64,000 nt of DNA, taken from NCBI RefSeq assembly GCF_000013865.1, contig NC_007948.1:310001-374000 (forward strand), in the 5' to 3' direction. The number at the start of each line of letters is the position of its first letter. Positions within the stretch are counted from its first letter, which is position 1. The position numbers and the translations under genes are program-made. The notes beneath the pieces are model-generated. The model did not search any database, was not told the origin of the DNA, and saw only the letters and a program-made list of their open reading frames with translations. The stretch is from Polaromonas sp. JS666. Lineage in GTDB: Bacteria > Pseudomonadota > Gammaproteobacteria > Burkholderiales > Burkholderiaceae_C. This document shows, piece by piece, positions 48,129 to 64,000 of this stretch.

Positions 48129-49457
48129 TCAGGAGACGTTGGCGGCCTCTGATAGAAATCTCTCCGCTTGACTTCGCATTCCTTGCGAGATCGGTTCCCA
48201 GATGCGTTCGGGAAAGCTCTGGGGCAGTTGTGCCTCGACGGTGTCGAGGGCCAGCACGACGCGATCAACCAAGCCTAGCATCGCTTCCCAGACGAAGGGG
48301 CCACCGTTCTTCATGGCAAGGTCGTGCCAATGGCGGGCGCGGATGGTGTGGATGTCGTAGTGCGTGTTCTTTGAACGCAGCGCCATGGCAAGACGCGCGT
48401 TGCGCAGATGCAGTTGCCCGCGGCCTTTGCCCACATAGGGCCACACGGACAGGACGTCGTACAGTGGCGTCATGTCGTAGGCATTGCCTTGGCGCAGGAA
48501 GATCGAAAAGTTCTTGGCATGACCGTCGGGCGCCGCCATGAGCCAGAAGGCCAACTGGGCGAGTTGGAAGGCAGTTCTGTCCGTTTGCGCGTCCGCGCTG
48601 CCAGACAGCAGCTTGAGGCCATCGGCGACGGACGGGCCCCCATCGTCTTCGTACTTCAGACGGGGAGGCAGGCCCAGCGCCTGGCAGAAGTCTTCCTGGG
48701 GAAGCCGGGCAATCCACTTCCCCTCCTTCATCCATCCCCGGTCGAAGCGCTCCACGACCAGCGCGCGCTGGTCGCCAAACATGGCCATCTCAGTGTGCGC
48801 CATGGGCAGCCCGAGCGCCTGGATGATCTGCGCGCACAGCCATTCGTTCTCGACGGAGTCGAACATTTCCACCCTGGTCGTGTTGGCGATCACTCCGAGT
48901 GGGAGCTTGAAGATATGAGTGCTCGGGGTGGCCCCGAGGGGCCTGCACCACTGGCCGTCGACCTGCACGAAGGCGGTTTTTTCCTGGGCGCCCGCCAGGG
49001 AAATGCGGAACGGTGGGGCTTCATTCACTTGGCGCGCAACCGGGTCGCCGGGGACGGCGCGAAGGGCGTCGGCGACCTGTTCTTCGGTCAACGGCTCGCA
49101 CTCGACGTGGTTCCACCCGTCGGGCACCGTTCCTTCCGGAAGCAACTGCACGGCGCCGACGCAGTCACGGCCGATGGCCTCCAGCAAGGCGAAGGCATCG
49201 AGCGTCTTGGTTCTGAACCTCCGGCCGATGCGCTCGCGGATCTTGTCGTTGTCAGGCAGCAAATTGTCGAAATAGTTCGCAACGACCTCCCCCTTGATCT
49301 CCAGGGTGCGGGTGAGAGGCAGAGACAGGGACAGCGGCCGGGATTTCTCGGACTCCAGCCATGACGGTGCGTACGAAAAGTTGTGGGTTCCGCGGTTGAC
49401 CTGCCAGGCACCGACGAATTCGCCATTCATCCACGCGTTGAGCGCCGCCATCACCAC
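48129..49457 (-). CDS. hipA: HipA-family toxin kinase, 442 aa
   Basis: A Ser/Thr-kinase-type toxin. The ATP-loop region ISLAGAQEKTAFVQVDGQW (near residue 155) and the catalytic loop MAAPDGHAKNFSIFL (near 310, with Asp, His, Lys and Asn in place) followed by TPLYDVLS match HipA. Length is normal. The start overlaps the stop of the antitoxin gene by 7 bp. Targets in this family are usually aminoacyl-tRNA synthetases; the specific target is unknown. Confidence 0.9.
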   Translation of the reverse strand: MVMAALNAWMNGEFVGAWQVNRGTHNFSYAPSWLESEKSRPLSLSLPLTRTLEIKGEVVANYFDNLLPDNDKIRERIGRRFRTKTLDAFALLEAIGRDCVGAVQLLPEGTVPDGWNHVECEPLTEEQVADALRAVPGDPVARQVNEAPPFRISLAGAQEKTAFVQVDGQWCRPLGATPSTHIFKLPLGVIANTTRVEMFDSVENEWLCAQIIQALGLPMAHTEMAMFGDQRALVVERFDRGWMKEGKWIARLPQEDFCQALGLPPRLKYEDDGGPSVADGLKLLSGSADAQTDRTAFQLAQLAFWLMAAPDGHAKNFSIFLRQGNAYDMTPLYDVLSVWPYVGKGRGQLHLRNARLAMALRSKNTHYDIHTIRARHWHDLAMKNGGPFVWEAMLGLVDRVVLALDTVEAQLPQSFPERIWEPISQGMRSQAERFLSEAANVS

Positions 49458-49966
49458 GAGCCTTTCTTAGGCCGGATGACGAAGTTGCGCTTGGATGTTG
49501 CTGTGACATCGGCGTGTGGATTCGCATCCCGCAGCGCTTGCGCGTCCGACGGGGTTTTTGTGTCGCTGCGACTGACTAGAACCGACTTCGCTGGGTGCCC
49601 GCCGCCTCCGGTCAAGGGCACCGTGCGCCACTGGCCCGTCGGCGGGATATTGACCGACGGTTGCTTGGCAGGTTTTTTGGGCTTACTTGCCTGGGGGGTG
49701 GCATGCAAGGCTGCCGCATTCGGTCGGTCCGCGACCACCTCGACAACGTCGTCCCTCAACACCAGGGAGGCGCGCAGCGCTGAGAGCACCTTCATCAACT
49801 GGTCGACGCTCACGGCGCCTGGATTGTTTTCGATCTCCGCGACACGGGCCTGCCCGACGCCGAGCAGCCGTCCGAGTGCGGCCTGGGTTAGGCCGTGCGT
49901 CTTCCTGAGCGAACGCAGGTGCTCACGAAGCTGGCTGGTCAGGTGGATGGGGAAGTCCATGTGCAT
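49451..49966 (-). CDS. hipB: HipB-like antitoxin, XRE family, 171 aa
   Basis: N-terminal helix-turn-helix (LTSQLREHLRSLRKTHGLTQAALGRLLGVGQARVAEIENN, about 9-48) with a long Pro/Lys-rich C-terminal tail ending FVIRPKKGSW. It is longer than E. coli HipB. Translationally coupled to hipA. The second ATG (two codons in) is an alternative start. It should bind and neutralise the toxin and repress the operon, probably at the inverted repeat 49995-50025. Confidence 0.85.
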   Translation of the reverse strand: MHMDFPIHLTSQLREHLRSLRKTHGLTQAALGRLLGVGQARVAEIENNPGAVSVDQLMKVLSALRASLVLRDDVVEVVADRPNAAALHATPQASKPKKPAKQPSVNIPPTGQWRTVPLTGGGGHPAKSVLVSRSDTKTPSDAQALRDANPHADVTATSKRNFVIRPKKGSW

Positions 49967-50169: not shown

Positions 50170-51787
50170 TGGGGGTGCGGATGAAAACTTGGACTGGTTT
50201 ATGCCGTAAGTCCAAGACTCTCTCGGTATTCGATGGGGCTAAGAGAGCCAAGAGATATCTTGATCCGCTTCTCGTTGTACCAGCGGATGTAGGAATCGAC
50301 TACCTGAATGAACTGTTCAATGGTTGTGGTCTTCCAGTCCCGAGGGTAGAACAGTTCCGTTTTCAATCGCCCGAAGAAACCCTCGCAGGCCGCGTTGTCA
50401 GGCGAACACCCCTTGCGCGACATCGAGCGAATCAACTTCGCGTCACCGATCCTCGATAGCCAACCGGGCCAGCGATAGTGTGCTCCACGATCAGAGTGGA
50501 CGACGGGCCGGTCATTGCCGCCGGCCACCGTCTCGATGGCTGCATCCAGCATCGTGTTGACGAGCTCAGCGTCGGGATGCGTCCCAATGGTCCAGCTGAT
50601 GACCAGGCCATCGAAGCAGTCGATGATGGGCGATAGGTACACCTTGCCGGCCGGGATCTGGAACTCTGTGATGTCGGTGAGCCACTTCTCGTTCGGGGCC
50701 GCTGCGTGGAAGTCGCGATTGATGAGGTTCTCGGGCGCTGGGCTGATTTCGCCCAAGTAGGAGCCGTACCGACGCCGCTTAGGCTTGGCAACGACCAAGC
50801 TCTCTTGTTTCATCAACCGCTGCACGACCTTCTCAGAGATGGTGACGCACTGCCTGGTCAACGAAGCCTGCAGCCTGCGGTAGCCGTAACAGCGGTGGTT
50901 CAGCTCGAAGATGTCGGTGAGGGTTTGCCGCACTGCAAGGTACTTGTCCGCCATCTTTACACGGGCTCGATGGTAGAAGTACGAGCTGCGCGCCAGATCC
51001 AACTGAGCAAGGAGCTCTGGCAGGGCATAGAGCTCTTTGAGGGCGTCAACCAGCAATGTCTTCTCCCGGTTGGTCAGGAGTTGCATATCGACGCCCAGGC
51101 CTTTTTTTAACAGTTCATTGGCCTTCTTTAATAGGTCATGTTCAAGCTGCAAACGCCGGATGTCACGTTCGAGCAACTCAACTTGCTGCTGTAGTTCCGT
51201 GAGTTCTTTCGGCTTGGGAGTTGACCCGGAATCGTTACTTCGCTTCATGGATGCGGGAGCCTCTCGACCGAGTAGTTGATTTTTCCACTTGTACAACGTT
51301 GGTCGAGTCACGCCAAGCTTTTGAGCAATTGCTTGCGCGCTTACCTGCCGAGTGCACAGCTCGATGACTGCCGCCTGCTTTGCTTCTCTGGGGAGCAGCA
51401 CGGCCTGCGCCTTGCCGACAACTTTTCTTCGTGTTTCGGGGAGCAACTCGTGGACCCAGGCTGCGAGAGTATCGCGGCACGGATATCCCAGTGCTTTTCG
51501 AGTTCCAGCAAGAAAGCGATCGTGGTTTAGGTAATGCTCGACGGCAACTCTTTTCTGTTCGGCTGAGTATTTTGATCTTGAACGCACATGGCCCACCCGC
51601 AAATTGCCACCTTGCTCGTATTCTCGATGCCAGCTCTTAAGCGCATTCTTTGTCGGGTAACCCAATTGCCGAATGGTCGCACCTGTGCGTTTCCCGAGTT
51701 TTATGTAGAGCCTAACTGCTCGAATGCGATCTTCGTATGAATACATGAACTACCTCCAAGTAGTCCAAGTTTTTGTCCGCACCCCCA
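50170..51787. mobile_element. complete IS3-family insertion sequence, 1618 bp
   Basis: Terminal inverted repeats of 26 bp with two mismatches begin TGGGGGTGCGGA at 50170 and end TCCGCACCCCCA at 51787. One transposase gene fills the element on the minus strand. Flanking bases (AGG on the left, GGT on the right) do not give a clean 3-bp target duplication. Confidence 0.9.
50199..51746 (-). CDS. IS3-family transposase, single ORF, 515 aa
   Basis: The N-terminal part (about 1-215) has two helix-turn-helix segments and a leucine-zipper-like helix (OrfA type). The rest is an rve/DDE integrase domain with LTDITEF, the second Asp in VVHSDRGAHY and Glu in NAACEGFFGRLKTE. Most IS3 elements make this fusion by frameshifting between two frames; here both parts are in one frame, joined near an A7G run (51102-51108). 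All DDE residues are present, so it could be active. Confidence 0.92.
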   Translation of the reverse strand: MYSYEDRIRAVRLYIKLGKRTGATIRQLGYPTKNALKSWHREYEQGGNLRVGHVRSRSKYSAEQKRVAVEHYLNHDRFLAGTRKALGYPCRDTLAAWVHELLPETRRKVVGKAQAVLLPREAKQAAVIELCTRQVSAQAIAQKLGVTRPTLYKWKNQLLGREAPASMKRSNDSGSTPKPKELTELQQQVELLERDIRRLQLEHDLLKKANELLKKGLGVDMQLLTNREKTLLVDALKELYALPELLAQLDLARSSYFYHRARVKMADKYLAVRQTLTDIFELNHRCYGYRRLQASLTRQCVTISEKVVQRLMKQESLVVAKPKRRRYGSYLGEISPAPENLINRDFHAAAPNEKWLTDITEFQIPAGKVYLSPIIDCFDGLVISWTIGTHPDAELVNTMLDAAIETVAGGNDRPVVHSDRGAHYRWPGWLSRIGDAKLIRSMSRKGCSPDNAACEGFFGRLKTELFYPRDWKTTTIEQFIQVVDSYIRWYNEKRIKISLGSLSPIEYRESLGLTA

Positions 51788-53590: not shown

Positions 53591-53739
53591 GCAGGCCATA
53601 CCAACGTCGTCTGGCGCACATGAACGCACACAGGTTCGCGTCTGAACACTTCTGTCCTCGGCGCAACGACAGCGTGAGGTGCGGCTTCGGGACGCGTCAT
53701 GGACGGTGCGTGATCCGCAAGCCGATTTTGCAGGGCCGA

Positions 53740-54756
53740 CTAATCTTGTTTTCGTGGAGACCTTGTGGACTGCCGAACTACCAGCTCGGGCTTCAGCCTA
53801 ATTTCCGCTTCACCATCTTGACCTTGCTGGATTCGCCGGAGAATCAGCTGAGCTGCTTGAATGCCCATTTCGTGGTGGCGAATACGAACTGTCGTCAGCG
53901 CCGGCGAGACCAAGTCCACGAAGGGCATGTCGTTGTATCCCACGATTGACATGTCCCGTGGGCATTTGATCTTCTTTTCCAGGAGGACGTCGTAGCAGCC
54001 TAGAGCCACAAGGTCATTGCCGGCTAGCACGGCAGTGGTTTTTGGAAAAGTCTTGAGGAGGGTTTGGCACGCAACTCTGCCGGCCTCACGTGTGTAGGCG
54101 GTGCAATCGACCATGTTGAGCTTGCTCTTTTGCCAGCCGTTGGCGACTGCAGCTTGAATGAACCCGGCACGACGCAAATAGCCTGTAGAGAGATTTTGCG
54201 GGCCGACGATATGCACGATTTCTGTATGCCCAAGGGACACGAGATGATCAAACGCCAAGCGCATGCCTAACAGCTCGTCGTTCATGACGCTCGATACCCG
54301 CCCATGATCCTCGCCTCGGTTGATGGTGACAACGACAGTATTCTTGGAAAGGCAATGGTCGATCAGGCGATCTTTGCGCGTTGCGGTCGCCAAAATCAAG
54401 GCGTCGACTTGGCGCGCCAGTAGTTGATCAACCACCGTGCGTTGTTGCTTAGGATCTTCCCCGCCGTTCGCCAGCAGTGCCACGAGGCCGTGCTTTCGGA
54501 GCTCGGTCTCGATGCCCAGAAGGATGGGGGGGAAAACGGGGTTCGAAATATCCGGCAGAACGATGCCAACAATATTGGAACGGCGCGTACGAAGAGACGA
54601 AGCAACATTGTTTGGCGTGAAATTGTGGCGGGCCGCTGCAGCTAACACTTTGGCAGCGACCTCCTTTCCAACCATGTGCCGAGTTGCCGGATTCAATACT
54701 CGGGACACAGTGGACGCGTGGACTCCCAGGGACTTAGCAAGTTCTTTCAGATTCAT
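53740..54756 (-). CDS. LacI-family transcriptional regulator, 338 aa
   Basis: The N-terminal helix-turn-helix MNLKELAKSLGVHASTVSRVLNPATRHMVG and hinge VASSLRTRRSNIVGIVLPDI are typical, followed by a periplasmic-binding-protein-like effector domain. LacI-type sites TGCAAnCGnnTGCA occur before this gene, the SDR gene, the yciI gene and the dioxygenase gene, so it most likely represses the catabolic cluster and itself. An IS481-like element lies between it and the divergent SDR gene. The effector is unknown, presumably the substrate or an intermediate. Confidence 0.92.
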   Translation of the reverse strand: MNLKELAKSLGVHASTVSRVLNPATRHMVGKEVAAKVLAAAARHNFTPNNVASSLRTRRSNIVGIVLPDISNPVFPPILLGIETELRKHGLVALLANGGEDPKQQRTVVDQLLARQVDALILATATRKDRLIDHCLSKNTVVVTINRGEDHGRVSSVMNDELLGMRLAFDHLVSLGHTEIVHIVGPQNLSTGYLRRAGFIQAAVANGWQKSKLNMVDCTAYTREAGRVACQTLLKTFPKTTAVLAGNDLVALGCYDVLLEKKIKCPRDMSIVGYNDMPFVDLVSPALTTVRIRHHEMGIQAAQLILRRIQQGQDGEAEIRLKPELVVRQSTRSPRKQD

Positions 54757-54769
54757 CGGATAACCATTT

Positions 54770-54785
54770 ATGCAAACGAATGCAA
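54770..54785. promoter_or_regulatory. LacI-type operator upstream of lacI
   Basis: ATGCAAACGAATGCAA, 14 bases before the lacI start codon. The left half-site TGCAAACG is perfect and the right one deviates at two bases. Suggests autoregulation. Confidence 0.7.
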
Positions 54786-54824
54786 GCTTACCAGCTGTCG
54801 AGAAGTATTTTCCAAATCAGGTAA

Positions 54825-56151
54825 TGAGCCTGAGCGAAGGCCGGACGGGAGGCTGAATCAGGCGGCGGTTTTGGATCGTCGGTGGAACATCTCGAAGAGA
54901 TTAAGGCGGGCAGCATTCATGGCGTTGGCGGCGTCCAGGTCACTCTGGGCATGGGCCTGTTCTTGAAGACGTTTGATGGTGATGCCCTTGCACAGGAACT
55001 TGCCCGCGCCGTCCAGGCTGGCCAGCTTCTCCAGCGGGGTTTTCACCATGTCGTGCGGGTAAGTCTTGCTGATCTTGCCTTTGTCATCGATCACCTCCTT
55101 GGCAAACAGACAGGGGCGGTGCAGGTTCACGTAGGGGTTGAGATGCGCGCGGCAGAACGCGTTGATGGCAGCGGCAAAGCGCTGCGGGATGTGGCTATAG
55201 CCAAAGGCCTTCCTGATCACCGCGCCGTTCTTGCCCTCGGCCAGGGCGTTGTCGTTGGAATGGCGGGCGCGTGATTTGGTCTGCTCCACGCGCAGCTTCT
55301 CCAGCAGCTGCGCCACCGCCCGGTTGATGAACTCGCTGCCGTTGTCCGAGTGAAATCCCAGGATCTTGAGCGGAAACTGCTCGATGAGGTCCTCGAGCAC
55401 GGGCAGCAAATAGGCCTCGCTGATGCGCTCACAGGTGGCCACGACTTCCCACTGGGTGACGACGTCCACCGCATTGACGTGATAGACCCCTTGGTGCCGT
55501 CCGGATCGCCCTGGTGAACCGAGTCGATGCGAATGAAGCCCGCTCGGCCCTGCGGGCGTGGCGCGCGCCGTATGCCGATTGGGTCGACCACCGCACGGGT
55601 CTTGGTCAAGCTCACGCGCTGGCCCTGGTAGGTCTTGCCGCGGCGCAGGTTGTACAGGTGCGACACCGACAGGCCGGCCAGGCGCTCGAAGCGGCTGTCG
55701 CCATGCGCCAATGCCCGCTTGAGCAAGTGCACGGTGGCCGGGCCCGACAGCGTGCCGTGGGCGCGGTCCACCTCGGCCAGCAGCAGGGCATCAGCCGTGG
55801 TGTAGCGCCGCGCAAACACATGAGCCGGGCTGCGGTAGCGCTTGTGCAGGCTCTGGCCGTCCAGCACGCGTGCCAGCAGCCGGGTGAGCTGGGTGCGCGA
55901 GTAGCCGCTGGTGTGCCCCAGATAGCGCAGCACCACGCCTTTATCGGGCCGATTCAAGCGGGCATAGCCCAAGAGCTGGGCCACCGAGACGATGTGGGCG
56001 TAGCGCGCCTCATCGCTGTCGGGCACGCAAAAGCGCACCTCCAGTGTGCCGGCCAGGAAGGCCTGAAGTTGGGGGGTTGTTTGCAGACGGGTTTCGTTCA
56101 CGTCGATCACCATGCGAAAAATGATCGACCCAACCCAGCCGCTCAGGCTCA
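54825..56151. mobile_element. IS481-like insertion sequence, about 1.33 kb
   Basis: Ends TGAGCCTGAGCG (54825) and CGCTCAGGCTCA (56151) form 12-bp perfect inverted repeats with TG..CA termini. A frameshifted transposase on the minus strand fills the element. No target duplication is evident. It sits in the intergenic region of divergent lacI and SDR genes. Confidence 0.8.
54858..56113 (-). pseudogene. rve-type (DDE) transposase, frameshifted
   Basis: Starting at MVIDVNETRLQTTPQ, the first frame has a helix-turn-helix region and runs to IRIDSVHQGDPDGTKG (with the first catalytic Asp). A one-base deletion near 55490 shifts the continuation VYHVNAVDVVTQW into another frame, which has the second Asp in GFHSDNGSEF and Glu in NDNALAEGKNG. 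Without frameshifting no active transposase is made. Confidence 0.85.
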
Positions 56152-56175
56152 CACCTCGTTGGATAAGACTTGTCG

Positions 56176-56204
56176 TTGACAGGACCGAATGAAAGAACTA
56201 CCAT
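56176..56204 (+). promoter_or_regulatory. promoter of the SDR-doxX transcript
   Basis: TTGACA (56176-56181), 17-base spacer, TACCAT (56199-56204). The predicted start of transcription coincides with the LacI-type operator at 56212, which fits repression. Confidence 0.65.
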
Positions 56205-56211
56205 TGAGTTT

Positions 56212-56227
56212 ATGCAAACGTTTGCAT
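56212..56227. promoter_or_regulatory. LacI-type operator upstream of the SDR gene
   Basis: ATGCAAACGTTTGCAT is a perfect 16-bp palindrome with the central CG characteristic of LacI-family sites, 20 bases before the SDR start codon. Confidence 0.85.
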
Positions 56228-56247
56228 GATTCAATTAAGGTGTTGAT

Positions 56248-56976
56248 ATGACTAAGGGAATTGATCGCGTTGCTCTTGTTACAGGTGGCTCTGGCGGGAT
56301 TGGTAGGGCGGTGGCCGAAAAGTTGGCCAGCCAAGGTGTCGCCGTTGGGATTGCCTACGGCAACAGCGAAACCAAAGCTGCGGAAACCGTTGAAAAAATC
56401 ATTGCCGAAGGTGGCCGTGCATTTGCCATCAAGGGGGATGTAACGCATGCAGCGGACGTCAAACGTCTATTTGACGAGACGGAAAAGAAATTTGGAAAGA
56501 TAAGCGTCGTCGTCAGTGTTACCGGTTCGTTCCTTATGAGGCCATTTGCAGAAGCTTCGGAAGCAGATTACGACACCGGAATGACCGTCAACGCGAAGGG
56601 CACGTATTTGGTTTATTCGGAAGCGGCTCGACGAGTTGTAGACGGCGGACGGATCATTGGCATATCGTCGAATCTGGTTTTATCGGGCCGGCCAGGCCTC
56701 GGATTGTACGTGGCCGGCAAAGCTGCAGTGGAGCAGTTTTCGAAGATTCTCGCAAAGGAGCTGGGATCGCGGCAAATCACTGTTAACGCCGTCGCTCCAG
56801 GTCCAACGGATACCGAGATGCTTTCTGAAGCTGGTAGGAAAAGTGCGCCGACCATCACTCCGTTGGGTCGAATCGCGCAGCCGATCGAAATTGCAAACGT
56901 TGTCGCATTCCTCGCCTCGCCCGAGGGCGGATGGGTGAATGGTCAAGTTGTCGGCGTCAACGGCGGCATCATTTAA
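56248..56976 (+). CDS. short-chain dehydrogenase/reductase, 242 aa
   Basis: A classical SDR: nucleotide-binding TGGSGGIGRAVAEKL, the Asn-containing NAKGTYLV, catalytic Ser in GISSNL, Tyr and Lys in LYVAGKAAVEQ and the end VNGQVVGVNGGII. It resembles FabG-type reductases, but its place behind a LacI operator points to catabolism: oxidation or reduction of a hydroxy or keto group of the unknown substrate. Followed after 32 bp by the DoxX gene. Confidence 0.9.
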   Translation: MTKGIDRVALVTGGSGGIGRAVAEKLASQGVAVGIAYGNSETKAAETVEKIIAEGGRAFAIKGDVTHAADVKRLFDETEKKFGKISVVVSVTGSFLMRPFAEASEADYDTGMTVNAKGTYLVYSEAARRVVDGGRIIGISSNLVLSGRPGLGLYVAGKAAVEQFSKILAKELGSRQITVNAVAPGPTDTEMLSEAGRKSAPTITPLGRIAQPIEIANVVAFLASPEGGWVNGQVVGVNGGII

Positions 56977-57008
56977 CGCCTAACTACAGTGAGCACGCGG
57001 TTACGACT

Positions 57009-57401
57009 ATGCAGAACACCCTCAGCACCGTTGACTTGGTCATACTTGCAACTAGGCTCACCTACGGCGCCTCGAGCGTCTTTCATGGCTACTCTAAGCT
57101 GAGAGGAGGGCCCAAGCAGTTTGCCGCAGCTTGGGGCCTCCCACCTCCTGTCGCCTACGTGGTGGTTTTCACACAAATCATTTGCGGCGCGCTGTTCGCA
57201 GCCGGTGTGCTTACTGCGTATGCAGGTCTGGGACTCATGATGATTGCGGCTGGCGCACTTGGAGCAATGCTGAAGCGGGGGGCGCCTTTTGCGGCGCCGG
57301 GTAAGTTGGGATGGGACTATCCCCTGATGCACCTAATCGTTCCGCTCGTGCTGGTGGTCATTGGCCCCGGCCGCTATTCCCTTCAAGCACTCGTCAATTA
57401 A
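57009..57401 (+). CDS. DoxX-family membrane protein, 130 aa
   Basis: Four hydrophobic helices with the DoxX pattern: ATRLTYGASSVFHGYSKLRGGPKQFAAAWGLPPP and a second half IAAGALGAMLKRGAPF followed by a terminal hydrophobic helix. DoxX-like proteins are often found with oxygenase or quinone-linked genes; the exact role is unknown. The start was set at the ATG at 57009. It converges on the ABM gene at 57407. Confidence 0.82.
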   Translation: MQNTLSTVDLVILATRLTYGASSVFHGYSKLRGGPKQFAAAWGLPPPVAYVVVFTQIICGALFAAGVLTAYAGLGLMMIAAGALGAMLKRGAPFAAPGKLGWDYPLMHLIVPLVLVVIGPGRYSLQALVN

Positions 57402-57406
57402 CTTAA

Positions 57407-57790
57407 TTAGCGCGGCGTCCCCTGCATCCAGCCGTTCCCGAATGAGAAATCACCTCTTATCGGTGTCCAGAAGGCGAGCTCTCTCTTCTCCAGGAGCATA
57501 TAGCCAAGTCGCTCCTCGTGGGGCACGCGGTAAGCGCGCTTCAGTTCTGTCGTCATGAAGTGCTCCCGATTCAGCCAAGTCTCGAACAACAAAAAACTGT
57601 TCGGGTCATCGGGGCTGCGGCAGGCAATTGTGTTTACGAAAGTGGTCTCAAGCCGCATGGCATCAAGAACCTCGTTTAGAGAGTTCAGAAACTCTTCGAG
57701 ATATTCACTTTTCACCTTGAGAGAAACGATCACAACAAACGGTTGCTGATCGCTTGCATCGCTTGAAATAGAGGTGGATTTGTTGTCCAT
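57407..57790 (-). CDS. antibiotic biosynthesis monooxygenase (ABM)-domain protein, 127 aa
   Basis: A dimeric alpha/beta-barrel-type ABM domain: FVVIVSLKVKSEYLEEFLNSLNEVLDAMRLE, then CRSPDDPNSFLLFETWLNREHF. Members oxidise quinols or act on polyketide-like aromatics without cofactors. Its reading direction is opposite to the rest of the cluster and its start lies 20 bp from the promoter/operator at 57811-57840, so it is probably controlled by the same regulator. It has a longer N-terminus than the second ABM gene at 59736. Confidence 0.82.
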   Translation of the reverse strand: MDNKSTSISSDASDQQPFVVIVSLKVKSEYLEEFLNSLNEVLDAMRLETTFVNTIACRSPDDPNSFLLFETWLNREHFMTTELKRAYRVPHEERLGYMLLEKRELAFWTPIRGDFSFGNGWMQGTPR

Positions 57791-57810
57791 AAAAACCTTT
57801 CACAAAAGTA

Positions 57811-57840
57811 TTGACAGTTTAATGCAATCGTTTGCATAAT
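57811..57840 (+). promoter_or_regulatory. promoter with embedded LacI-type operator for yciI-liv operon
   Basis: TTGACA (57811-57816), 18-base spacer, CATAAT (57835-57840). The operator ATGCAATCGTTTGCAT (57822-57837) fills the spacer and touches the -10, so a bound repressor would exclude RNA polymerase. It also lies upstream of the divergent ABM gene. Confidence 0.8.
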
Positions 57841-57870
57841 AAATTTACCGAAACAGAATCGAGCAAGTAA

Positions 57871-58152
57871 ATGCTGTTTGCAATTCATGCCCTGGATAAA
57901 AAAAATTCCGGCTCCCTGCGTGCGGATGCGGCGCAAGAACATGGCGCATTTCTGGGCAACGCTGCAGCGTGGGGGCTGGAAATCGTGTTTTCCGGGCCTT
58001 TGGTGGATGCAAATTCACCCATCGGTAGCTTGCTGGTTGTCGAGGCGCAAGAGATTGGTATCGCCAAGAAATTTATCGAGGCCGATCCTCTGGCGAAGGC
58101 GGGTGTCTATGAAAAAGTGAGCGTGACGGGATTCCTCAAAAAGAGGGGTTGA
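57871..58152 (+). CDS. YciI-like protein, 93 aa
   Basis: The family pattern MLFAIHALDKKN, EHGAFL (His of the putative active site), FSGPLVD and a C-terminal EADPLAKAGVYEKVSVTGF identify a YCII-related dimeric alpha/beta protein. In other pathways such proteins act as lactone isomerases or dehalogenase-like enzymes. First gene of the transport operon. Confidence 0.88.
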   Translation: MLFAIHALDKKNSGSLRADAAQEHGAFLGNAAAWGLEIVFSGPLVDANSPIGSLLVVEAQEIGIAKKFIEADPLAKAGVYEKVSVTGFLKKRG

Positions 58153-58185
58153 GTAAGTTCGATCAATTGAAAAAGGACCATTGAT

Positions 58186-59316
58186 ATGTTTGCGACCAGA
58201 TTCTCAAAGTTACAAGCCTGCGTGATGTTTGCTGGGGTGGCGCTTGCCTTCTCAGCCGGAGCGCAAGTGAAAGTGGGTGTATTTGTCCCTCTTACGGGAG
58301 ATGCGGCCGGGTACGGCCAGAGTGCTTTGGAGGCGATTCAGCTTGCAGTTAAACAGAAAAATGATGCCGGCGGGGTGCTCGGCCAAAAGATCGAATTGGT
58401 AGTGCGAGACGATGGCGCCAAGCCCGAGCAATCGGTAACCGTTGCCAAGCGCTTGGCCACGAGCGATGGAGTACTGGTCATGCTGGGTAGCATCTCCAGC
58501 CCTGCCAGCTTTGCGGCAACACAAGTGGCGCTTCAGACCGGCACGCCGCAAATCGTGTTGTTGGGTACCGCTCAGCGGATTACCACCCAAGGCAACCCAT
58601 GGGTCTTTCGTGGAACCATCCCCGATACGAAGCTGTCGGGAGATCTGGTTGAGTTCATCATCCGTAAATATCCGGGCAAGAAGAAAGTCGGCTACCTGTA
58701 CGTGAACGACGATTTTGGTCGTGGCGGCTTTGAGGCTTTCAAGGCACGTGCTGAAAGCTCCGGACTGACTATCGTCGCGGAGGAAAAGTACGCTCCAGGT
58801 GACTTGGACTTCACCAGCCAACTGACCAAGATTCAGAGCGAAAATCCGGACGTATTTGTTGATTGGTCCCGCTACACTGAAGGCGCGCTGGTGGCGATTC
58901 AGGCCAAGCGCAAGGGCATGACATTGCCGCACTTCGGCTCAGAGGGACTCTCGCACCCCAACTTCATCAAACTTGCCGGGGACGCAAGCGACGGCATGAT
59001 GTATCCCGTGCCTTTCAGCATGACCACGCAAAGCGGAAACAACATCGCCGTCACCTTGGCGCAGGATATCAAGAAGACCTACAACAAGGAGATTGAGTAC
59101 ACGCATGCCTTGGCCTATGACGCCATGCGGGCTGTCATCTTCGCGATTGAGAAATCCGGCACTACCACCGATAAGCTGAAATTCAGGGACGCCCTGAAGA
59201 GCCTGGAATTTGATTCAACCCGTGGAAAGTTCAAATTTGACGCGAAAGGCGATCCCACCTTGCTGCCTTCGATCGTCAAACTCTCAAGTGGTAAAGAGCA
59301 AGACGCCAACAAGTAA
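58186..59316 (+). CDS. ABC transporter substrate-binding protein, Liv/aromatic-acid type, 376 aa
   Basis: A signal peptide (about 1-27, ending AFSAGA) is followed by a two-lobed Peripla_BP_6 domain: VKVGVFVPLTGDAAGYGQSALEAIQLAVKQKNDAGGVLGQKIELVVRDD and GYLYVNDDFGRGGFEAFKARAE. Despite the branched-chain amino acid family name, members next to catabolic genes often bind aromatic acids. Works with the permeases and ATPases encoded at 60059-63447. Confidence 0.92.
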   Translation: MFATRFSKLQACVMFAGVALAFSAGAQVKVGVFVPLTGDAAGYGQSALEAIQLAVKQKNDAGGVLGQKIELVVRDDGAKPEQSVTVAKRLATSDGVLVMLGSISSPASFAATQVALQTGTPQIVLLGTAQRITTQGNPWVFRGTIPDTKLSGDLVEFIIRKYPGKKKVGYLYVNDDFGRGGFEAFKARAESSGLTIVAEEKYAPGDLDFTSQLTKIQSENPDVFVDWSRYTEGALVAIQAKRKGMTLPHFGSEGLSHPNFIKLAGDASDGMMYPVPFSMTTQSGNNIAVTLAQDIKKTYNKEIEYTHALAYDAMRAVIFAIEKSGTTTDKLKFRDALKSLEFDSTRGKFKFDAKGDPTLLPSIVKLSSGKEQDANK

Positions 59317-59334
59317 ACGACGAAGGAAACAGTC

Positions 59335-59733
59335 ATGAAAAAAGAATTTATCCGCGGAACCTGGCAGAAGACGCGTGCCTTCTCTCCTGCGGTGATCACA
59401 GAGGGCGGAAAAACGATCTGGATTGCGGGCCACACCGGCCAGAAGGATGATCAAGGCAATTCCCTTGCGGCCAACTTTGACGCTCAAACGCGCCAAACCT
59501 TCCGCAATATAGAAGCGACGCTGGCGCAGGCCGGCGCCACTTTGAAGGACATTGTCACTGTCACGGTTTTTCTGACGGACGTGCGCAACACCACCCGTAT
59601 GACTGAAATCCGGGCGGAGGTCTTTGGAAGCGAGTTCCCTGCGAGTGCGGCCATCACCGTTACGGCATTTGCCGACCCAACCATGATGATCGAGATCCAG
59701 GGCGTTGCGGTTGTGCCAGCGAAAGGCGTCTGA
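59335..59733 (+). CDS. RidA-family protein, 132 aa
   Basis: A YjgF/YER057c/UK114 trimer-forming protein: IWIAGHTGQKDD, QTRQTFRNIEATLAQAGATLKDIVTVTVFLTDV and AAITVTAFADPTMMIEIQGVAVVP. The usual catalytic Arg region reads FGSEFPASAAITV, lacking the R of the RPARxxV motif, so simple enamine deaminase activity is doubtful. It may act as a hydrolase on a pathway intermediate. Confidence 0.9.
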   Translation: MKKEFIRGTWQKTRAFSPAVITEGGKTIWIAGHTGQKDDQGNSLAANFDAQTRQTFRNIEATLAQAGATLKDIVTVTVFLTDVRNTTRMTEIRAEVFGSEFPASAAITVTAFADPTMMIEIQGVAVVPAKGV

Positions 59734-59735
59734 TC

Positions 59736-60059
59736 ATGACATCTCCCACCCCGGTTTGCGTCGAAATTCAATTCCAGATCAAGCCGGAGTTGGAAGAAGA
59801 ATTTTTTCGGCAGCTAACCGCATTCAGCCATGTCGTCGCAAGCGAGCCGGAGTGCCTCGAGTTCCGGATCTACCGTGACATGGCTGACAAGGCCAAATTT
59901 CGCGTTAGCGAGACTTGGGTGAGTCTGGCGCACTTTGAAACCGTTCAGATGGCCAAGGACTATTACCCGCCGTATTTCGAAAAAGTTCGCGATATGTGGG
60001 CAGTCCCCATCCAAATGACCAAATGGACGCCACTGGTGACGCATCAAAAGGCTGACTGA
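59736..60059 (+). CDS. second ABM-domain protein, 107 aa
   Basis: TPVCVEIQFQIKPELEEEFFRQLTAFSHVVASEPECLEFRIYRDMADKAKFRVSETWVSLAHFE (by position about 4-67) is an ABM domain closer to the short monooxygenase type than the protein at 57407. It follows the RidA gene by 2 bp and its stop overlaps the permease start (TGATG). Two ABM genes in one regulon suggest oxidative steps or quinol handling. Confidence 0.85.
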   Translation: MTSPTPVCVEIQFQIKPELEEEFFRQLTAFSHVVASEPECLEFRIYRDMADKAKFRVSETWVSLAHFETVQMAKDYYPPYFEKVRDMWAVPIQMTKWTPLVTHQKAD

Positions 60060-60943
60060 TGAACTTATCTCAAATATCTGAGCTCGCGGTAGCGGGGTTC
60101 GCGATCGGGTGCATCTATGCCTTGATAGCTCTGGGGTTCACCATGATCATACGGACTACTGGTGTTTTGCATTTTGCGCAAGGCGAGGTCGTCATGCTTG
60201 GCGCCATGGCTGGCCTGACGGCGCTCCAATTCGCACAACTTCCATTCATTGTTGTGCTGCTCGTTGGGATGCTTTTTGGAGGACTTGTTGCCGTTGTGGT
60301 TGAGGTAACCGTCTATCGGTGGCTCAACTACCGCAAAGCTCCGTTGGCAAACGTGATTATCGCCACCGTTGGCGTGTCCATTGTTTTGCAGAACGTCGCG
60401 CGGCTGGTGTGGGGGTCGGAGGCTAGAGCCTATCCAAAACTGTTCGAAGTGGATACCTACACCCTGGGTTCCGCACACATACCGCCGCAGCTGATTTGGA
60501 TCATTGTCCTTGGCGCTATGGTGATGATTGTGCTGCAACTGTTCCTCTCGAAAACGCAAACCGGCCGGGCTCTGCAAGCTTGTGCGCAGGACGCTGACGC
60601 TGCCTATTTGATGGGTATTGATGTTCGCAGAATGACAACCTACACCTATGGGATTGCAGGCCTTCTGGGGGGCGGGGCAGGGGTGTTGTTGGGATCGATG
60701 TTTTATGCCTCCTTTGGCATGGGCTTCATCGTCGGTATCAAGGCTTTCGTCGCTGCAACGGTGGGCGGCTTGGGCAGTATTGGCGGCGCGGTGCTTGGCG
60801 GGCTTGTTTTCGGGCTCGTTGAGACTGCGACCTCCGTTGTCATCTCAAGCGCCTATCGAGACGCAATCGGGATGATTCTCCTGATCCTCATTCTCCTGGT
60901 TTCCCCTGGCGGCCTTGCGGGTCTCCGCCGCCCTCAAAGGTAA
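60059..60943 (+). CDS. ABC transporter permease, LivH family, 294 aa
   Basis: Eight or so membrane helices. The family motif AVGGFGSIxGAVLGG appears as ATVGGLGSIGGAVLGGLVFGLVE. The cytoplasmic coupling segment LQACAQDADAAYLMGIDVRRMTTYTYGIAG is clear. Start overlaps the preceding stop. Confidence 0.93.
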   Translation: MNLSQISELAVAGFAIGCIYALIALGFTMIIRTTGVLHFAQGEVVMLGAMAGLTALQFAQLPFIVVLLVGMLFGGLVAVVVEVTVYRWLNYRKAPLANVIIATVGVSIVLQNVARLVWGSEARAYPKLFEVDTYTLGSAHIPPQLIWIIVLGAMVMIVLQLFLSKTQTGRALQACAQDADAAYLMGIDVRRMTTYTYGIAGLLGGGAGVLLGSMFYASFGMGFIVGIKAFVAATVGGLGSIGGAVLGGLVFGLVETATSVVISSAYRDAIGMILLILILLVSPGGLAGLRRPQR

Positions 60944-60946
60944 GTT

Positions 60947-61945
60947 GTGACAACAGAAAAATTCAATACGAGCTGGTTGTGGGCGGGGCGGCTATCGCTT
61001 GCCGCTGTCATGTGCGCCATCCCACTCTTTATCCAGCAAAAATACCTGCTGCACGTGATTAGCCTCGCTATGATTTTCGGCATCGCTGCGCTCTCGCTTC
61101 AGTTGCTTTTGGGATTCACGGGCTTGTTATCTATGGGGCAGGCGGCCTTTCTCGGGGTTGGGGCTTACACGGCGGGTATCCTTGCGGTCAAGCTGCAGTA
61201 TCCATTCCTCGTCTGCTTTGTGGCTGCGGGTGTGGTCAGCGGGCTGATCAGTTTGATCCTCGTTCCCATCACCAGGCTAAAAGGGGTCTACCTTTCAGTC
61301 GCAACGCTCGGTTTCACGATCGCCATCCATTTAGTGTTTCTGAATGAAGAGTGGCTGACCGGTGGATCACAAGGGCTGTCTTCAATACCGCCACCAGCGA
61401 TAGGCTCGTTGGCAATCGGCGGTGAGCAAGGCATTTACTACTTGTGTCTGGCGGTTGCCATCGGAAGCTTCGCCGCCTTTCACTTGCTTGTTTCAAGCCG
61501 CTTCGGCCGTGCACTGCAAGCGATCAAACTTGACGAGGATGCTGCTCGTGCAAGCGGCATCAACGTCACTTTGTATAAAAGCCAGGCGTTTGTCACTGCT
61601 GCGGTCTTCACCGGGTGGGCCGGCGCTCTTTTCACTTATCACAACCAGTACCTCAATCCCAACGATTTCACTTTCTGGAAGTCAATTGAGATCGTCATCA
61701 TGGTGGCGGTAGGCGGGATCGGCAGCCTTGCAGGAGCCGTCTTTGGCGCTTTCGCGGTAACGCTGTTGCCTGAGGTCCTGGGCGACCTGGAAAACTACCG
61801 CATGATCATTTTTGGATCTTTGGTGGTCCTTTGCATGGGTCTCGGCCATAGCGGTCTAGCTGGCCTGATTGGTAGTGGTTTTCGTAAATGGATTTACTTC
61901 AGAGCTGCCGCGCCAGCCGCGGATCTGCAGGAGGTTCCGCAATGA
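60947..61945 (+). CDS. ABC transporter permease, LivM family, 332 aa
   Basis: Begins with GTG 4 bases after the LivH stop. Signatures GLLSMGQAAFLGVGAYTAGIL, RFGRALQAIKLDEDAARASGINVTLYK and VAVGGIGSLAGAVFGA. The last residues overlap the LivG start by 4 bp. Confidence 0.93.
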   Translation: MTTEKFNTSWLWAGRLSLAAVMCAIPLFIQQKYLLHVISLAMIFGIAALSLQLLLGFTGLLSMGQAAFLGVGAYTAGILAVKLQYPFLVCFVAAGVVSGLISLILVPITRLKGVYLSVATLGFTIAIHLVFLNEEWLTGGSQGLSSIPPPAIGSLAIGGEQGIYYLCLAVAIGSFAAFHLLVSSRFGRALQAIKLDEDAARASGINVTLYKSQAFVTAAVFTGWAGALFTYHNQYLNPNDFTFWKSIEIVIMVAVGGIGSLAGAVFGAFAVTLLPEVLGDLENYRMIIFGSLVVLCMGLGHSGLAGLIGSGFRKWIYFRAAAPAADLQEVPQ

Positions 61946-62718
61946 CCCAAATTCAAGTGAACGCGATGACACGCCGCTTTGGCGGCGTGTTCGCGGTCGA
62001 TCAGGTCTCGACGGCCATTCCGAAAGGAGAAATACGGGGGCTTATCGGGCCGAATGGCGCAGGTAAAACGACGTTGCTGAATCTGATCAGCGGCGCCTTG
62101 GCGCCCTCAAGTGGAGAGATGTTGATGGAAGGCAAGGTGCTTTCCAACCTGCGCGCAGACCAGCGTGCTGCACATGGAATTCGCCGCACCTTCCAGAACC
62201 TCAAGCTATTCGGCGAGTTGACGGTGTTGGAGAACGTGGTGCTCGGACTGCATTCCTCCACGGATTCGGGCATCCTGGACGCCATTTTTAGAACGCCCAG
62301 GCATCGCAGGGAAGAGCGGTGGGCTTTGGAGCAGTCACGCCAGGCCCTGGAAATGGTCGGTTTGGGCCGGGTTGCCGATTTGCAGGCGTCTTCTCTGGCA
62401 TACGGGCATCGGCGCCTCCTGGAGATCGCCCGGGCAATTGTGTCGCAACCTAAAGTTCTGCTTCTTGATGAGCCGGCGCAGGGGCTGAACCCCACGGAGG
62501 CCAGTGAGCTGGTTCAACTTCTGCGAAAGATCAATGAAACGGATATGACGGTTGTACTGGTCGAGCACCATATGGACGTCATCATGAAGGCCTGCTCACG
62601 CATCACCGTTCTCAACTATGGGCGGGTTTTGGCCGAGGGTACGCCGGCGGAAATCAAAAACGATGCCTCGGTGGTTAGCGCCTATCTGGGCGGGCCGGTC
62701 AAACTCGCGGAGGTCTGA
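61942..62718 (+). CDS. ABC transporter ATP-binding protein, LivG family, 258 aa
   Basis: Walker A GPNGAGKTTLLNLISG, Walker B VLLLDEPAQGLNPTE, signature ASSLAYGHRRLLEIARA (SYG-type as in LivG) and the H-loop LVEHHMD. The ATG at 61942 overlaps the LivM stop and has AGGAGG upstream; a longer version without conserved N-terminus is rejected. Confidence 0.95.
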   Translation: MTQIQVNAMTRRFGGVFAVDQVSTAIPKGEIRGLIGPNGAGKTTLLNLISGALAPSSGEMLMEGKVLSNLRADQRAAHGIRRTFQNLKLFGELTVLENVVLGLHSSTDSGILDAIFRTPRHRREERWALEQSRQALEMVGLGRVADLQASSLAYGHRRLLEIARAIVSQPKVLLLDEPAQGLNPTEASELVQLLRKINETDMTVVLVEHHMDVIMKACSRITVLNYGRVLAEGTPAEIKNDASVVSAYLGGPVKLAEV

Positions 62719-63447
62719 ATGCTTGATGTTAAAGATCTGAAAGTCAGCTACGGCGAGGTTCCCGCATTGCGCGGCGTCTCACTTGTCGTCAAGAAGAACG
62801 AAATTGTCACCGTGATCGGCGCCAACGGAGCGGGCAAGTCCACGCTGCTCAGGACCATCTCCGGACTTTCCAAAGTCAAAGGCGGGACCATTGAGTTTGA
62901 TGGAATTGCGGTGGGATCAAAGCAGCCACAGGACGTGGTGAAACTTGGTATTGCCCACGTGCCCGAAGGGCGGCATGTATTTCCCTTGCTGAGTGTTGAG
63001 GACAACCTCAAAGTGGGCGCTTATTTGAATCGTCGAAAGCAGGTCATTGCGGAAGACCTCGACCGCGCTTTTTCGATGTTTCCACGCCTTGCTGAGAGAC
63101 GCCATCAGGCGGCGGGAACTCTGTCTGGCGGAGAGCAGCAAATGCTCGCGCTGGGTCGAGCCATGATGACTCGCCCGAGGCTTCTTCTTCTGGATGAGCC
63201 GTCTCTGGGTCTGGCCCCAAAAATCGTCGATGAAGTTATCCAGACGATTGTGAAGTTTCGCAGCGAGGGCGTCACCATTCTTTTGGTGGAGCAAAACGCC
63301 AACCTCGCCTTGGCTATTGCTGACAGAGCCTATGTGATGACCTTGGGCCAGGTCACCCTGTCTGGAAGTGCCAGCGAAGTGCAGGCTGATCCTGCCGTTA
63401 GAGCTAGTTATTTGGGCGAAATTGCAAACGATTGCATGAAAGATTGA
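62719..63447 (+). CDS. ABC transporter ATP-binding protein, LivF family, 242 aa
   Basis: Walker A GANGAGKSTLLRTISG, signature LSGGEQQMLALGRAMM, Walker B LLLLDEPSLGLAPK. The LivF-typical ALRGVSL start and SYLG end are present. Its last codons carry the LacI-type operator of the next gene (63422-63437). Confidence 0.95.
   Translation: MLDVKDLKVSYGEVPALRGVSLVVKKNEIVTVIGANGAGKSTLLRTISGLSKVKGGTIEFDGIAVGSKQPQDVVKLGIAHVPEGRHVFPLLSVEDNLKVGAYLNRRKQVIAEDLDRAFSMFPRLAERRHQAAGTLSGGEQQMLALGRAMMTRPRLLLLDEPSLGLAPKIVDEVIQTIVKFRSEGVTILLVEQNANLALAIADRAYVMTLGQVTLSGSASEVQADPAVRASYLGEIANDCMKD
63422..63437. promoter_or_regulatory. LacI-type operator upstream of the dioxygenase gene
   Basis: TTGCAAACGATTGCAT lies within the last codons of livF, 16 bases before the dioxygenase ATG. 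It keeps both TGCA arms and the central CG of the other three sites. Suggests separate regulation of the ring-cleavage gene or a roadblock within the operon. Confidence 0.65.
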
Positions 63448-63452
63448 TTTAA

Positions 63453-64000
63453 ATGAACCACCACCTTATTGATAGCGAAGCAAGCGTCACCCGGTTTGTA
63501 ATTGCCGCAATGTCCGACACCCAGGATCCTCGCCTCAAACGGATCATGGAGTGCGCTGTGCAGCATTTGCACGCATTTGCTCGCGAATGCGATCTGTCTG
63601 AAGATGAGCTTGAAGCCGGACTGCGATTCATTACAGAAATAGGACAGCAAACTCACCATAGCCATAACGAGGTTGTGCTGGCGGCTGATGTGCTTGGTCT
63701 GTCTACTCTGGTTGCCTTACGAAACAACCCCTCAGCTCATGGGCAAACCGCAGCGGCACTATTGGGGCCGTTCTGGCGTAAGGACGCTCCAATCTGTACC
63801 AATGGGGAAAGTATTGCGAGGACGCCATCCAGTCACCCTTCTCTAGAGGTTTCAGGCTACGTTAGGGACGATGCGGGTAATCCTATAACGCAGGCGCAGG
63901 TTGACGTTTGGCAGGCCTCGCCAACGGGACTATATGAGAACCAAGACGCTGCCCAAGAAGACATGAATCTGCGCGGCCGATTCTTAACGGACGACAAAGG
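63453..64000 (+). CDS. intradiol ring-cleavage dioxygenase, N-terminal part, cut by window end
   Basis: 182 codons are visible. The N-terminal helical domain (MSDTQDPRLKRIMECAVQHLHAFARE, EIGQQTHHSHNEVVLAADVLGLSTLV) is followed by LLGPFWRKDAP and the catalytic barrel start VSGYVRDDAGNPITQAQVDVWQASPTGLYENQD. The Tyr of GLYENQD is an expected Fe(III) ligand, and MNLRGRFLTDD follows. The style is that of hydroxyquinol 1,2-dioxygenases; catechol 1,2-dioxygenase is the alternative. It would open a di- or trihydroxybenzene ring between the hydroxyl groups. The rest of the gene and probably maleylacetate or muconate steps lie beyond the window. Confidence 0.9.
   Translation, partial: MNHHLIDSEASVTRFVIAAMSDTQDPRLKRIMECAVQHLHAFARECDLSEDELEAGLRFITEIGQQTHHSHNEVVLAADVLGLSTLVALRNNPSAHGQTAAALLGPFWRKDAPICTNGESIARTPSSHPSLEVSGYVRDDAGNPITQAQVDVWQASPTGLYENQDAAQEDMNLRGRFLTDDK

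Follow-up and report, generated by a model that had tools for sequence, protein, structure and literature searches.

The 64,000-nucleotide stretch of Polaromonas sp. JS666 analysed here (referred to as the window; C1:310001-374000 of the 5.9-Mb genome) carries at its right-hand end a set of genes that the initial annotation had taken for a catabolic cluster of unassigned substrate, and by gene content it does look so. All of the proteins named at that time were recovered with their stated domains, namely a short-chain dehydrogenase (SDR1), a DoxX-like membrane protein, two antibiotic-biosynthesis-monooxygenase-like proteins (ABM1 and ABM2), a YciI-family protein, a RidA-family protein, a Liv-type importer and an intradiol dioxygenase (Table 1). 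This gene list for 56248-64000 was right, but the boundaries cut the system at both ends, as a LacI-family regulator gene lies upstream and the core operon, of which the dioxygenase gene is the first, continues downstream. Specifically, 182 of the 288 dioxygenase residues lie inside the window, the full-length gene being contained in the adjoining right-hand stretch (L004; 19.6 kb from C1:373400), where it is followed by genes for a second SDR (SDR2), a beta-keto acid cleavage enzyme (BKACE), an MDR reductase and a cupin-like protein. As to the maleylacetate reductase genes that the initial annotation proposed to look for downstream, no iron-type enzyme of this kind was seen among the open reading frames (ORFs) of these 19.6 kb. 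No RNA element reached its gathering score in 53700-64000.

Table 1. Features of the cluster, its control region and the core operon, with the second ring-cleavage cluster of the genome. Positions are those of the window unless prefixed with C1 or L004.
Feature	Position	Strand	Basis or remark
LacI-family regulator, presumed regulator of the cluster	53740-54756	-	Pfam LacI and Peripla_BP
Degenerate putative operator, 3 mismatches	54770-54785		directly upstream of lacI
Insertion sequence with broken transposase	54804-56163	-	between lacI and SDR1; second genome copy, inverted repeats
Sigma-70-like promoter, TTGACA-17-TACCAT	56176-56204	+	before SDR1; 10/12
Putative LacI-type operator, perfect palindrome ATGCAAACGTTTGCAT	56212-56227		just downstream of SDR1 promoter match
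SDR1, short-chain dehydrogenase	56248-56976	+	domain search
DoxX-like membrane protein	57009-57401 (likely start; ORF opens 56931)	+	Pfam DoxX, 1.7e-8
ABM1, divergent	57407-57790	-	Pfam ABM
Sigma-70-like promoter, TTGACA-18-CATAAT	57811-57840	+	towards YciI; 11/12
Putative operator, 1 mismatch	57822-57837		ABM1/YciI divergent region
YciI-family protein	57871-58152	+	Pfam YCII
Liv-type solute-binding protein	58186-59316	+	Pfam Peripla_BP_6
RidA-family protein	59335-59733	+	Pfam
ABM2	59736-60059	+	Pfam ABM
LivH-type permease	60059-60943	+	Pfam BPD_transp_2
LivM-type permease	60947-61945	+	Pfam BPD_transp_2
LivG-type ATPase	61942-62718 (likely start; ORF opens 61888)	+	Pfam ABC_tran, BCA_ABC_TP_C
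LivF-type ATPase	62719-63447	+	Pfam ABC_tran, BCA_ABC_TP_C
Putative operator, 2 mismatches	63422-63437		before dioxygenase, inside end of livF
Intradiol dioxygenase, first gene of core operon	63453-64000 (complete: C1:373453-374319)	+	domain search
SDR2	C1:374331-375095		core operon gene 2
BKACE	C1:375107-375985		PF05853, 327.1 bits (cut-off 24.8)
MDR reductase	C1:376021-376998		core operon gene 4
Cupin-like protein	C1:376995-377333 (L004:3596-3934)		overlaps MDR end
Apparent gamma-resorcylate/resorcinol cluster (L148; name inferred)	C1:2136000-2153000		gene content

The spread of this core operon was surveyed from both the dioxygenase and the BKACE. At a match threshold of E 1e-60, 87 of 399 genomes of the family (its own included) contained a dioxygenase match, the twelve best after its own being 53-59% identical, and nine of 20 fetched dioxygenase neighbourhoods held the dioxygenase together with SDR2, BKACE and MDR. 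Scanning genome contigs with a BKACE alignment and taking the best 80 of 561 confirmed relatives yielded 63 loci in which a dioxygenase (>48% identity) and SDR2 were also present, and these three genes were likewise found in all of the eight plasmid loci hand-picked from 117 plasmid matches to the dioxygenase. Dioxygenase, SDR2 and BKACE hence co-occur in 71 of 88 loci (63/80 selected by BKACE and 8/8 by dioxygenase), although such counts are not natural frequencies because the samples are similarity-selected and Variovorax-rich. In 66 of the 71 core loci, the genes for dioxygenase, SDR2, BKACE and MDR run collinearly along a single strand within 6 kb, and the cupin is found in 70 of 72 loci (the core loci plus L004). 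Core hosts include Variovorax, Paraburkholderia, Cupriavidus, Noviherbaspirillum, Limnohabitans, Rhizobiaceae, Bosea and Skermanella; by BKACE (among the best 80 of 561) the closest loci are Noviherbaspirillum L063 (78%) and L104 (77%), and by full-length dioxygenase that of Paraburkholderia sejongensis (L066, 65%).

The core operon is thus very likely a shared and conserved unit, judging from these comparisons, and because the dioxygenase heads such a widely conserved operon, the cluster taken in its entirety is not unique. The idea of a unique system was therefore rejected for the core and kept only for the genes in front of it. Nevertheless, the suggestion that the system is undescribed holds in so far as the literature searched (with few subscription papers, and in the text available) gave, among the matches listed, no description of the core with a LacI regulator or of the regulon. 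The 17 BKACE loci without this combination comprise 14 from Bradyrhizobium and three others, at least one of which ends at a contig edge. Four of the 14 Bradyrhizobium loci, inspected by eye, gave no substrate clue. Conversely, 11 of the 20 fetched dioxygenase neighbourhoods have a dioxygenase of the same subfamily, with LL or LM at the two pocket positions discussed below, but neither the core nor a BKACE. Five of these 11, inspected by eye, revealed no common partner; one such dioxygenase (L043) adjoins what look like homoprotocatechuate genes.

The transporter at the core differs among loci, being of the Liv, TRAP, TctC, NMT1 or DctA type or a PcaK-like symporter, and TctC and NMT1 proteins, a DctA-type carrier, porins and the PcaK-like symporter (the latter scoring under family cut-offs) adjoin the operator or the core in relatives. 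Beyond the cupin, L004 encodes an NMT1-type binding protein, a TctC protein, a second Liv-type binding protein and a gamma-carbonic-anhydrase-like protein, and these four genes may or may not belong to the system, because L004 has no operator match except the one before the dioxygenase. The cupin itself reaches 23.6 bits on Cupin_2 (cut-off 27.2) and is 72% identical to that of L063. The latter (L063:12407-12757, 113 residues) matches an NCBIfam model puzzlingly named beta-D-galactosidase (114.4 of 175 bits). A few relatives carry further enzymes near the core: L063 alone of 72 loci has a cystathionine gamma-synthase-family PLP enzyme (L063:6815-8068) between its operator-linked reductase gene and the dioxygenase, L110:15010-17780 encodes an additional, only distantly related dioxygenase (39%) along with an amidohydrolase and a Dabb-domain protein, and L044 has a second dioxygenase at 38%. 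In P. sejongensis (L066:6842-9839), two LacI-type operators are followed, ahead of the BKACE, by genes for a 515-residue protein that matches nothing in Pfam or NCBIfam and for a berberine-type FAD oxidase, which may reveal an upstream step.

The initial annotation had assumed that all of these genes are under one regulator. A repeat search revealed a 23-nt repeat on both sides of the insertion sequence, corresponding to the degenerate site before lacI and the perfect palindrome ATGCAAACGTTTGCAT before SDR1. The window contains five matches to this putative operator with up to three mismatches, compared with 0.25 on average in shuffled sequence, and none of 100 shuffles reached five; the fifth match, at 51836 (three mismatches), lies about 90 bases from a transposase ORF (50199-51746) and was discounted. 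The pattern TGCAAWCGNTTGCA, which was designed with the sites already in view and made to include the three better ones, found no fourth match in the 5.9-Mb genome, and a reversed control pattern yielded none. The two highest-scoring promoter matches here lie at the putative operators at 56212 and 57822, the latter overlying most of the spacer of the YciI promoter as well as the start of its second hexamer, although the total of promoter matches in the region did not exceed chance (4 against 4.7 expected).

Sites of this kind also occur in relatives of the cluster. When the stretch from -300 to +30 around each protein-match start was scanned with the window's own palindrome as consensus, a site with up to three mismatches was found before 50 of 69 dioxygenases and before 39 of 54 LacI genes, compared with 1/71, 0/71 and 0/69 for the control starts of SDR2, BKACE and MDR, respectively, in a sample in which many loci are from Variovorax, divergent pairs share one site and control stretches are mostly coding. 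The 71 core loci contain 71 matches to a 14-mer pattern, of which 59 are close to LacI or the dioxygenase, and the 12 remaining ones include sites before a maleylacetate-reductase-like gene (L063), NMT1 (L080, two overlapping), TctC (L104) and porin-like genes; in L068 and L074 a site lies between the PcaK-like symporter and RidA. The LacI protein of the window is 40-56% identical to those of the core loci, 54 of which (out of 71) have a LacI-type gene, and at most 32% identical to the remaining eight LacI matches of the same genome. It combines the LacI and periplasmic-binding-like domains of its family, and the palindromes have a central CG, precede the genes presumed to be regulated and are conserved together with the regulator. 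Because the pattern for the three better sites matches nowhere else in the genome, and 50 of 69 homologous clusters have such a site ahead of the dioxygenase, a single dedicated regulon is well supported and its existence very likely, with lacI probably controlling both the front genes and the core operon. Control by one regulator is thereby supported, with the amendment that the LacI gene lies outside the coordinates originally given, behind the insertion sequence.

Regarding the ring-cleaving enzyme, three of the five best solved relatives of the dioxygenase (all five at E 8e-52 to 1e-56) bear the name of a hydroxyquinol or 6-chlorohydroxyquinol dioxygenase, a chlorocatechol enzyme comes after these five at 6e-32, and the NCBIfam equivalogs for catechol and chlorocatechol 1,2-dioxygenases were not reached (159.5 of 359.25, 147.3 of 392 and 137.9 of 404.4 bits). 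The Tyr-Tyr-His-His iron ligands are retained as Y161, Y195, H219 and H221, which align with what we take to be ligands Y164, Y197, H221 and H223 of 1TMX, and all four are present in 69 of 69 sequences (that of the window and 68 relatives retained from the 71 core loci after filtering by length and identity). All 69 also have L103 and L104 where 1TMX has V107 and F108, two residues that presumably line the substrate pocket.

This affinity raises the question of whether the cluster encodes an ordinary, reshuffled lower pathway for hydroxyquinol of the resorcinol, nitrophenol or aminophenol type. The hydroxyquinol 1,2-dioxygenase/maleylacetate pathway, known for 2,4,5-T, resorcinol and gamma-resorcylate, indeed shares the superfamily, iron ligands and N-terminal dioxygenase domain, as well as a YciI partner in its TftG route, a maleylacetate-reductase-like gene stands behind an operator in L063, and such genes occur somewhere in five of the 71 core loci (47-100%; a sixth at 30% was not counted). 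However, the present cluster differs from that pathway in the Leu-Leu pair replacing Val-Phe, in the LacI-type control and in the BKACE at its end, with no hydroxylase recognised and with BKACE, MDR and cupin instead of an adjacent iron-type maleylacetate reductase. Moreover, the same genome has a separate cluster of the resorcinol type by gene content (L148), which encodes a MarR protein, a flavin reductase, an amidohydrolase, an MFS protein (by eye), an iron-type maleylacetate-reductase-like protein, a hydroxyquinol-type dioxygenase with the motif VFGPFY and an acyl-CoA-dehydrogenase-fold protein taken as hydroxylase. The genome's best maleylacetate reductase homologue (C1:2144158) also lies there, beside this other dioxygenase. 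Because of this separate cluster, a canonical resorcinol/hydroxyquinol pathway was judged an unlikely identity for the cluster of the window, in line with the view of the initial annotation that it is not of the standard resorcinol type.

The BKACE retains the zinc ligands H47, H49 and E246 in 89 of 89 sequences, comprising the window locus and the 88 loci mentioned above (the Bradyrhizobium ones without dioxygenase included). Its closest solved relative is BsfD from flavophos biosynthesis (PDB 9ZSC; 3e-108, gap-free alignment), with Phe165 and Arg90, both invariant in 89/89, aligning with Phe166 and Arg91 of BsfD. In the available text of PMC12871164, Arg91 is described as unique and as meeting the phosphonate of the substrate, and a Tyr, called catalytic, is described as present in all BKACEs. 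Since both residues are invariant throughout the 89 sequences, they are not specific to BsfD or to flavophos synthesis, and a Phe is also present at this position in 3c6c. The residues used to explain BsfD chemistry are then common to a large, apparently catabolic subfamily, which bears on the origin of that chemistry. The enzyme might itself acetylate a beta-keto acid without retro-Claisen cleavage, as BsfD does, the core then yielding an acetylated product in place of acetoacetate and an acyl-CoA. The gap-free relationship with BsfD and the shared Phe and Arg fit this, but it seems very improbable, given that in many genomes importers and porins accompany the core, as expected of a catabolic operon, that the Phe of 3c6c makes this residue alone no mark of BsfD chemistry, and that the Arg, which serves a phosphonate in the biosynthetic BsfD, could as likely serve a carboxylate here.

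By its predicted position, the distal-end Arg suits a dicarboxylate such as 3-oxoadipate. A role for BKACEs on beta-ketoadipate beside intradiol pathways has been proposed, according to the accessible parts of the respective papers, for the pca genes of Methylobacterium (PMC8963497) and the cat genes of Ralstonia eutropha H16 (PMC6449761). These variants resemble the present cluster in coupling intradiol cleavage to a DUF849/BKACE protein, but as far as those texts go they have other dioxygenases and regulators, and the BKACE here belongs to the Phe/Arg subfamily and stays below the model for 3-oxoadipate:acetyl-CoA enzymes (NF053568, 169.5 of 350 bits), so that it was rejected as a member of that known equivalog.

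The genes in front of the core appear, from the comparisons made, to be additions at this locus (YciI, ABM, RidA and DoxX) to the shared core. YciI had two PDB matches at E<=1, the better of which, albeit weak (E 2e-4, 25 bits), is TftG, a 5-chloro-2-hydroxyhydroquinone dehydrochlorinase that turns a chlorohydroxyquinol into hydroxybenzoquinone ahead of ring cleavage (PMC3975901, text seen in excerpt). The likeness to TftG thus lies in the YCII family and in a hydroxyquinol-type dioxygenase within the same pathway, but the match is of 25 bits only and no halogen-related genes were recognised at this locus. Both ABM1 (39.6 bits) and ABM2 (43.4 bits) exceed the ABM cut-off of 23.1, and the two are distant paralogues (26% identical). 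Not all ABM-fold proteins are monooxygenases. A word-based search of 5.8 billion proteins returned only its own record (99%) for ABM1 and two matches (97% and 61%) for ABM2. The ABM2 search also led to three loci of one other family (L163-L165) in which an SDR gene is directly followed by an ABM gene, with a pirin gene next (the pirin domain was checked in L164).

Near the core, RidA relatives (46-50%) were found in L053, L066, L068 and L074, in the last two beside the operator, and relatives of DoxX and YciI (33%) in L083 alone of 118 loci, with the DoxX gene adjoining the dioxygenase; the other front proteins hardly recurred in these loci. For the binding protein, 398 other genomes sampled from the order yielded no relative at E 1e-80, with up to four candidates scored in each, and no second cluster with the front set was found when searching by ABM1, ABM2 and the binding protein. 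Distant relatives may have been missed because the protein search needs shared exact words and because of the limit on candidates per genome. The scarcity of front-protein relatives near the core, together with the TftG-like YciI, would fit a front set (YciI, ABM, RidA, DoxX and SDR1) that merely detoxifies auto-oxidised hydroxyquinones, leaving the core as the only true pathway. Such a division of labour is improbable, as the front genes share LacI-type operators (two of them) and come with an importer. Regarding the intermediate with quinone, lactone or imine groups that ABM, YciI and RidA were earlier proposed to handle, direct support comes solely from the weak TftG match of YciI, and the front set speaks weakly for a quinone type and hardly at all for an imine. 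A parallel with paracetamol/aminophenol degradation was dismissed as loose, since in the available text of PMC9420511 RidA and dioxygenases are expressed but not located in one cluster.

Taken together, these features point to a catabolic island run by one LacI-family repressor, in which ring cleavage would yield a maleylacetate-type acid that is reduced and then cleaved by the BKACE, a reading we hold with evenly divided confidence. Specifically, the Liv importer would bring in a small, probably carboxylated, ring compound, and the front enzymes would convert it into a hydroxyquinol-like enediol, with YciI acting in a TftG-like manner on a substituted hydroxyquinol or its quinone, while SDR, ABM and RidA would deal with forms that are quinones or imines. 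Next, the dioxygenase would open the ring between two vicinal hydroxyls to give a maleylacetate-type beta-keto dicarboxylate, MDR would reduce its double bond to give a 3-oxoadipate-type acid, and BKACE would use acetyl-CoA to convert the latter into acetoacetate and a succinyl-CoA-type thioester, SDR2 perhaps acting on the ring compound or its quinone. The BKACE route would in this way stand in for the iron-type maleylacetate reductase and the PcaIJ/PcaF steps, and LacI would leave the DNA upon binding the substrate or an early product. The chances of this reaction sequence are about even.

Two observations in relatives argue for the maleylacetate-type intermediate. In Noviherbaspirillum L063, the operator-linked gene encodes a protein whose solved matches include the named maleylacetate reductases 3hl0 and 3w5s (its best match, 3jzd, is named only iron-containing alcohol dehydrogenase), and in Shinella L056 the gene immediately upstream of the dioxygenase encodes a GST whose closest family is maleylacetoacetate isomerase (82 bits, cut-off 171); L057 and L059 have relatives of this GST.

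A number of observations weigh against this pathway or its control. Because L063 has both MDR and the maleylacetate-reductase-like protein, MDR need not be a maleylacetate reductase; no ring hydroxylase was recognised at the cluster; and the pocket of the dioxygenase deviates by the Leu-Leu pair. In the BKACE, Phe165 takes the place of the Tyr of 2y7d, the expected equivalent of Tyr145 of CcaKce being absent, the 3-oxoadipate model is not reached, and the same BKACE subfamily occurs without dioxygenase in Bradyrhizobium (14 of the best 80 loci). Front proteins other than RidA are largely absent near the core of relatives. As to regulation, 17 of the 71 core loci show no LacI, and no site with up to three mismatches was found in 19 of 69 dioxygenase and 15 of 54 LacI upstream stretches. 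Furthermore, a survey of LacI regulons assigned 176 of 182 groups to carbohydrates, and its main text does not contain the words aromatic, catechol or dioxygenase (PMC4052901).

In a bolder reading, the cluster would represent a widespread LacI-switched pathway of Proteobacteria, undescribed in the papers searched, in which the dioxygenase subfamily marked by the motif LLGPF(W/Y)R would open a substrate other than hydroxyquinol, possibly with a sugar-like or cyclitol precursor, and in which the Phe/Arg BKACE would act by non-canonical chemistry, with BsfD later recruited from it; we consider this doubtful. Returning to the known routes, the ordinary hydroxyquinol lower pathway discussed above is unlikely. 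A sugar- or cyclitol-derived substrate in particular, whose enediol or SDR-aromatised ring would be cleaved by the dioxygenase and whose sugar-like effector would be sensed by LacI, would agree with the carbohydrate bias of LacI regulons, with the lack of a recognised hydroxylase in the core and with sugar-type transporter genes (RbsA/C-like, by eye) near the core in L083 and L110. An SDR and a BKACE also degrade deoxyribonate according to the available text of PMC6365646, where acetoacetate is the expected product as well, but that system has no dioxygenase and another substrate class. Since the core has no recognised kinase or sugar isomerase, an aromatic-acid-type symporter (under family cut-offs) lies beside the operator in L074 and L068, and both the iron ligands and the nearest solved relatives are those of aromatic-ring dioxygenases, a sugar or cyclitol origin seems rather unlikely.

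The analysis defines a common, unassigned degradation module of soil, plant-associated and freshwater bacteria together with its likely regulator and operator, and the LacI family, known mainly for sugars, would be extended to ring cleavage. Finding the substrate is turned into a direct experiment, namely which compound releases LacI from ATGCAAACGTTTGCAT.

The cluster looks like a horizontally acquired catabolic island, because of its GC contrast, the transposase and integrase genes at its flanks and the absence of the dioxygenase from the five relatives listed within the genus. The GC content is 51-57% in each kb between position 56 kb of the window and position 8 kb of L004, compared with 60-67% at 40-50 kb of the window, and further to the right of 8 kb in L004 it is mixed (52-63%). 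Transposase genes lie to the left of the cluster, and a phage-type integrase gene (L004:11873-13450) and a tRNA-Arg gene (L004:16406) to the right, and at E 1e-60 the dioxygenase was found in none of five other genus members listed. At the DNA level, no plasmid record covered most of 56248-63998, the ten listed of 155 matching the Liv ATPase stretch only. The insertion sequence between lacI and SDR1 is presumably a later insertion outside the pathway. Over this stretch, a second genome copy is 86% identical, inverted repeats lie at 54825 and 56140, the GC content is above that of the cluster, and an integrase-core match falls just under the cut-off; its family is not settled, although it is IS481-like by eye.

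Elsewhere in the window, two neighbouring giant repeat proteins of 1806 and 1350 residues (10128-15548 and 16088-20140) share the same starting sequence and lie near genes for proteins with LapD (PF16448) domains, LapG-type peptidase (PF06035) domains and type I secretion-like features (by eye), and are apparently a duplicated large surface adhesin. Finally, a HipA-like protein with an HTH partner (48129-49966, minus strand; PF07804, PF13657 and PF01381) is encoded at the left edge of the transposase region.

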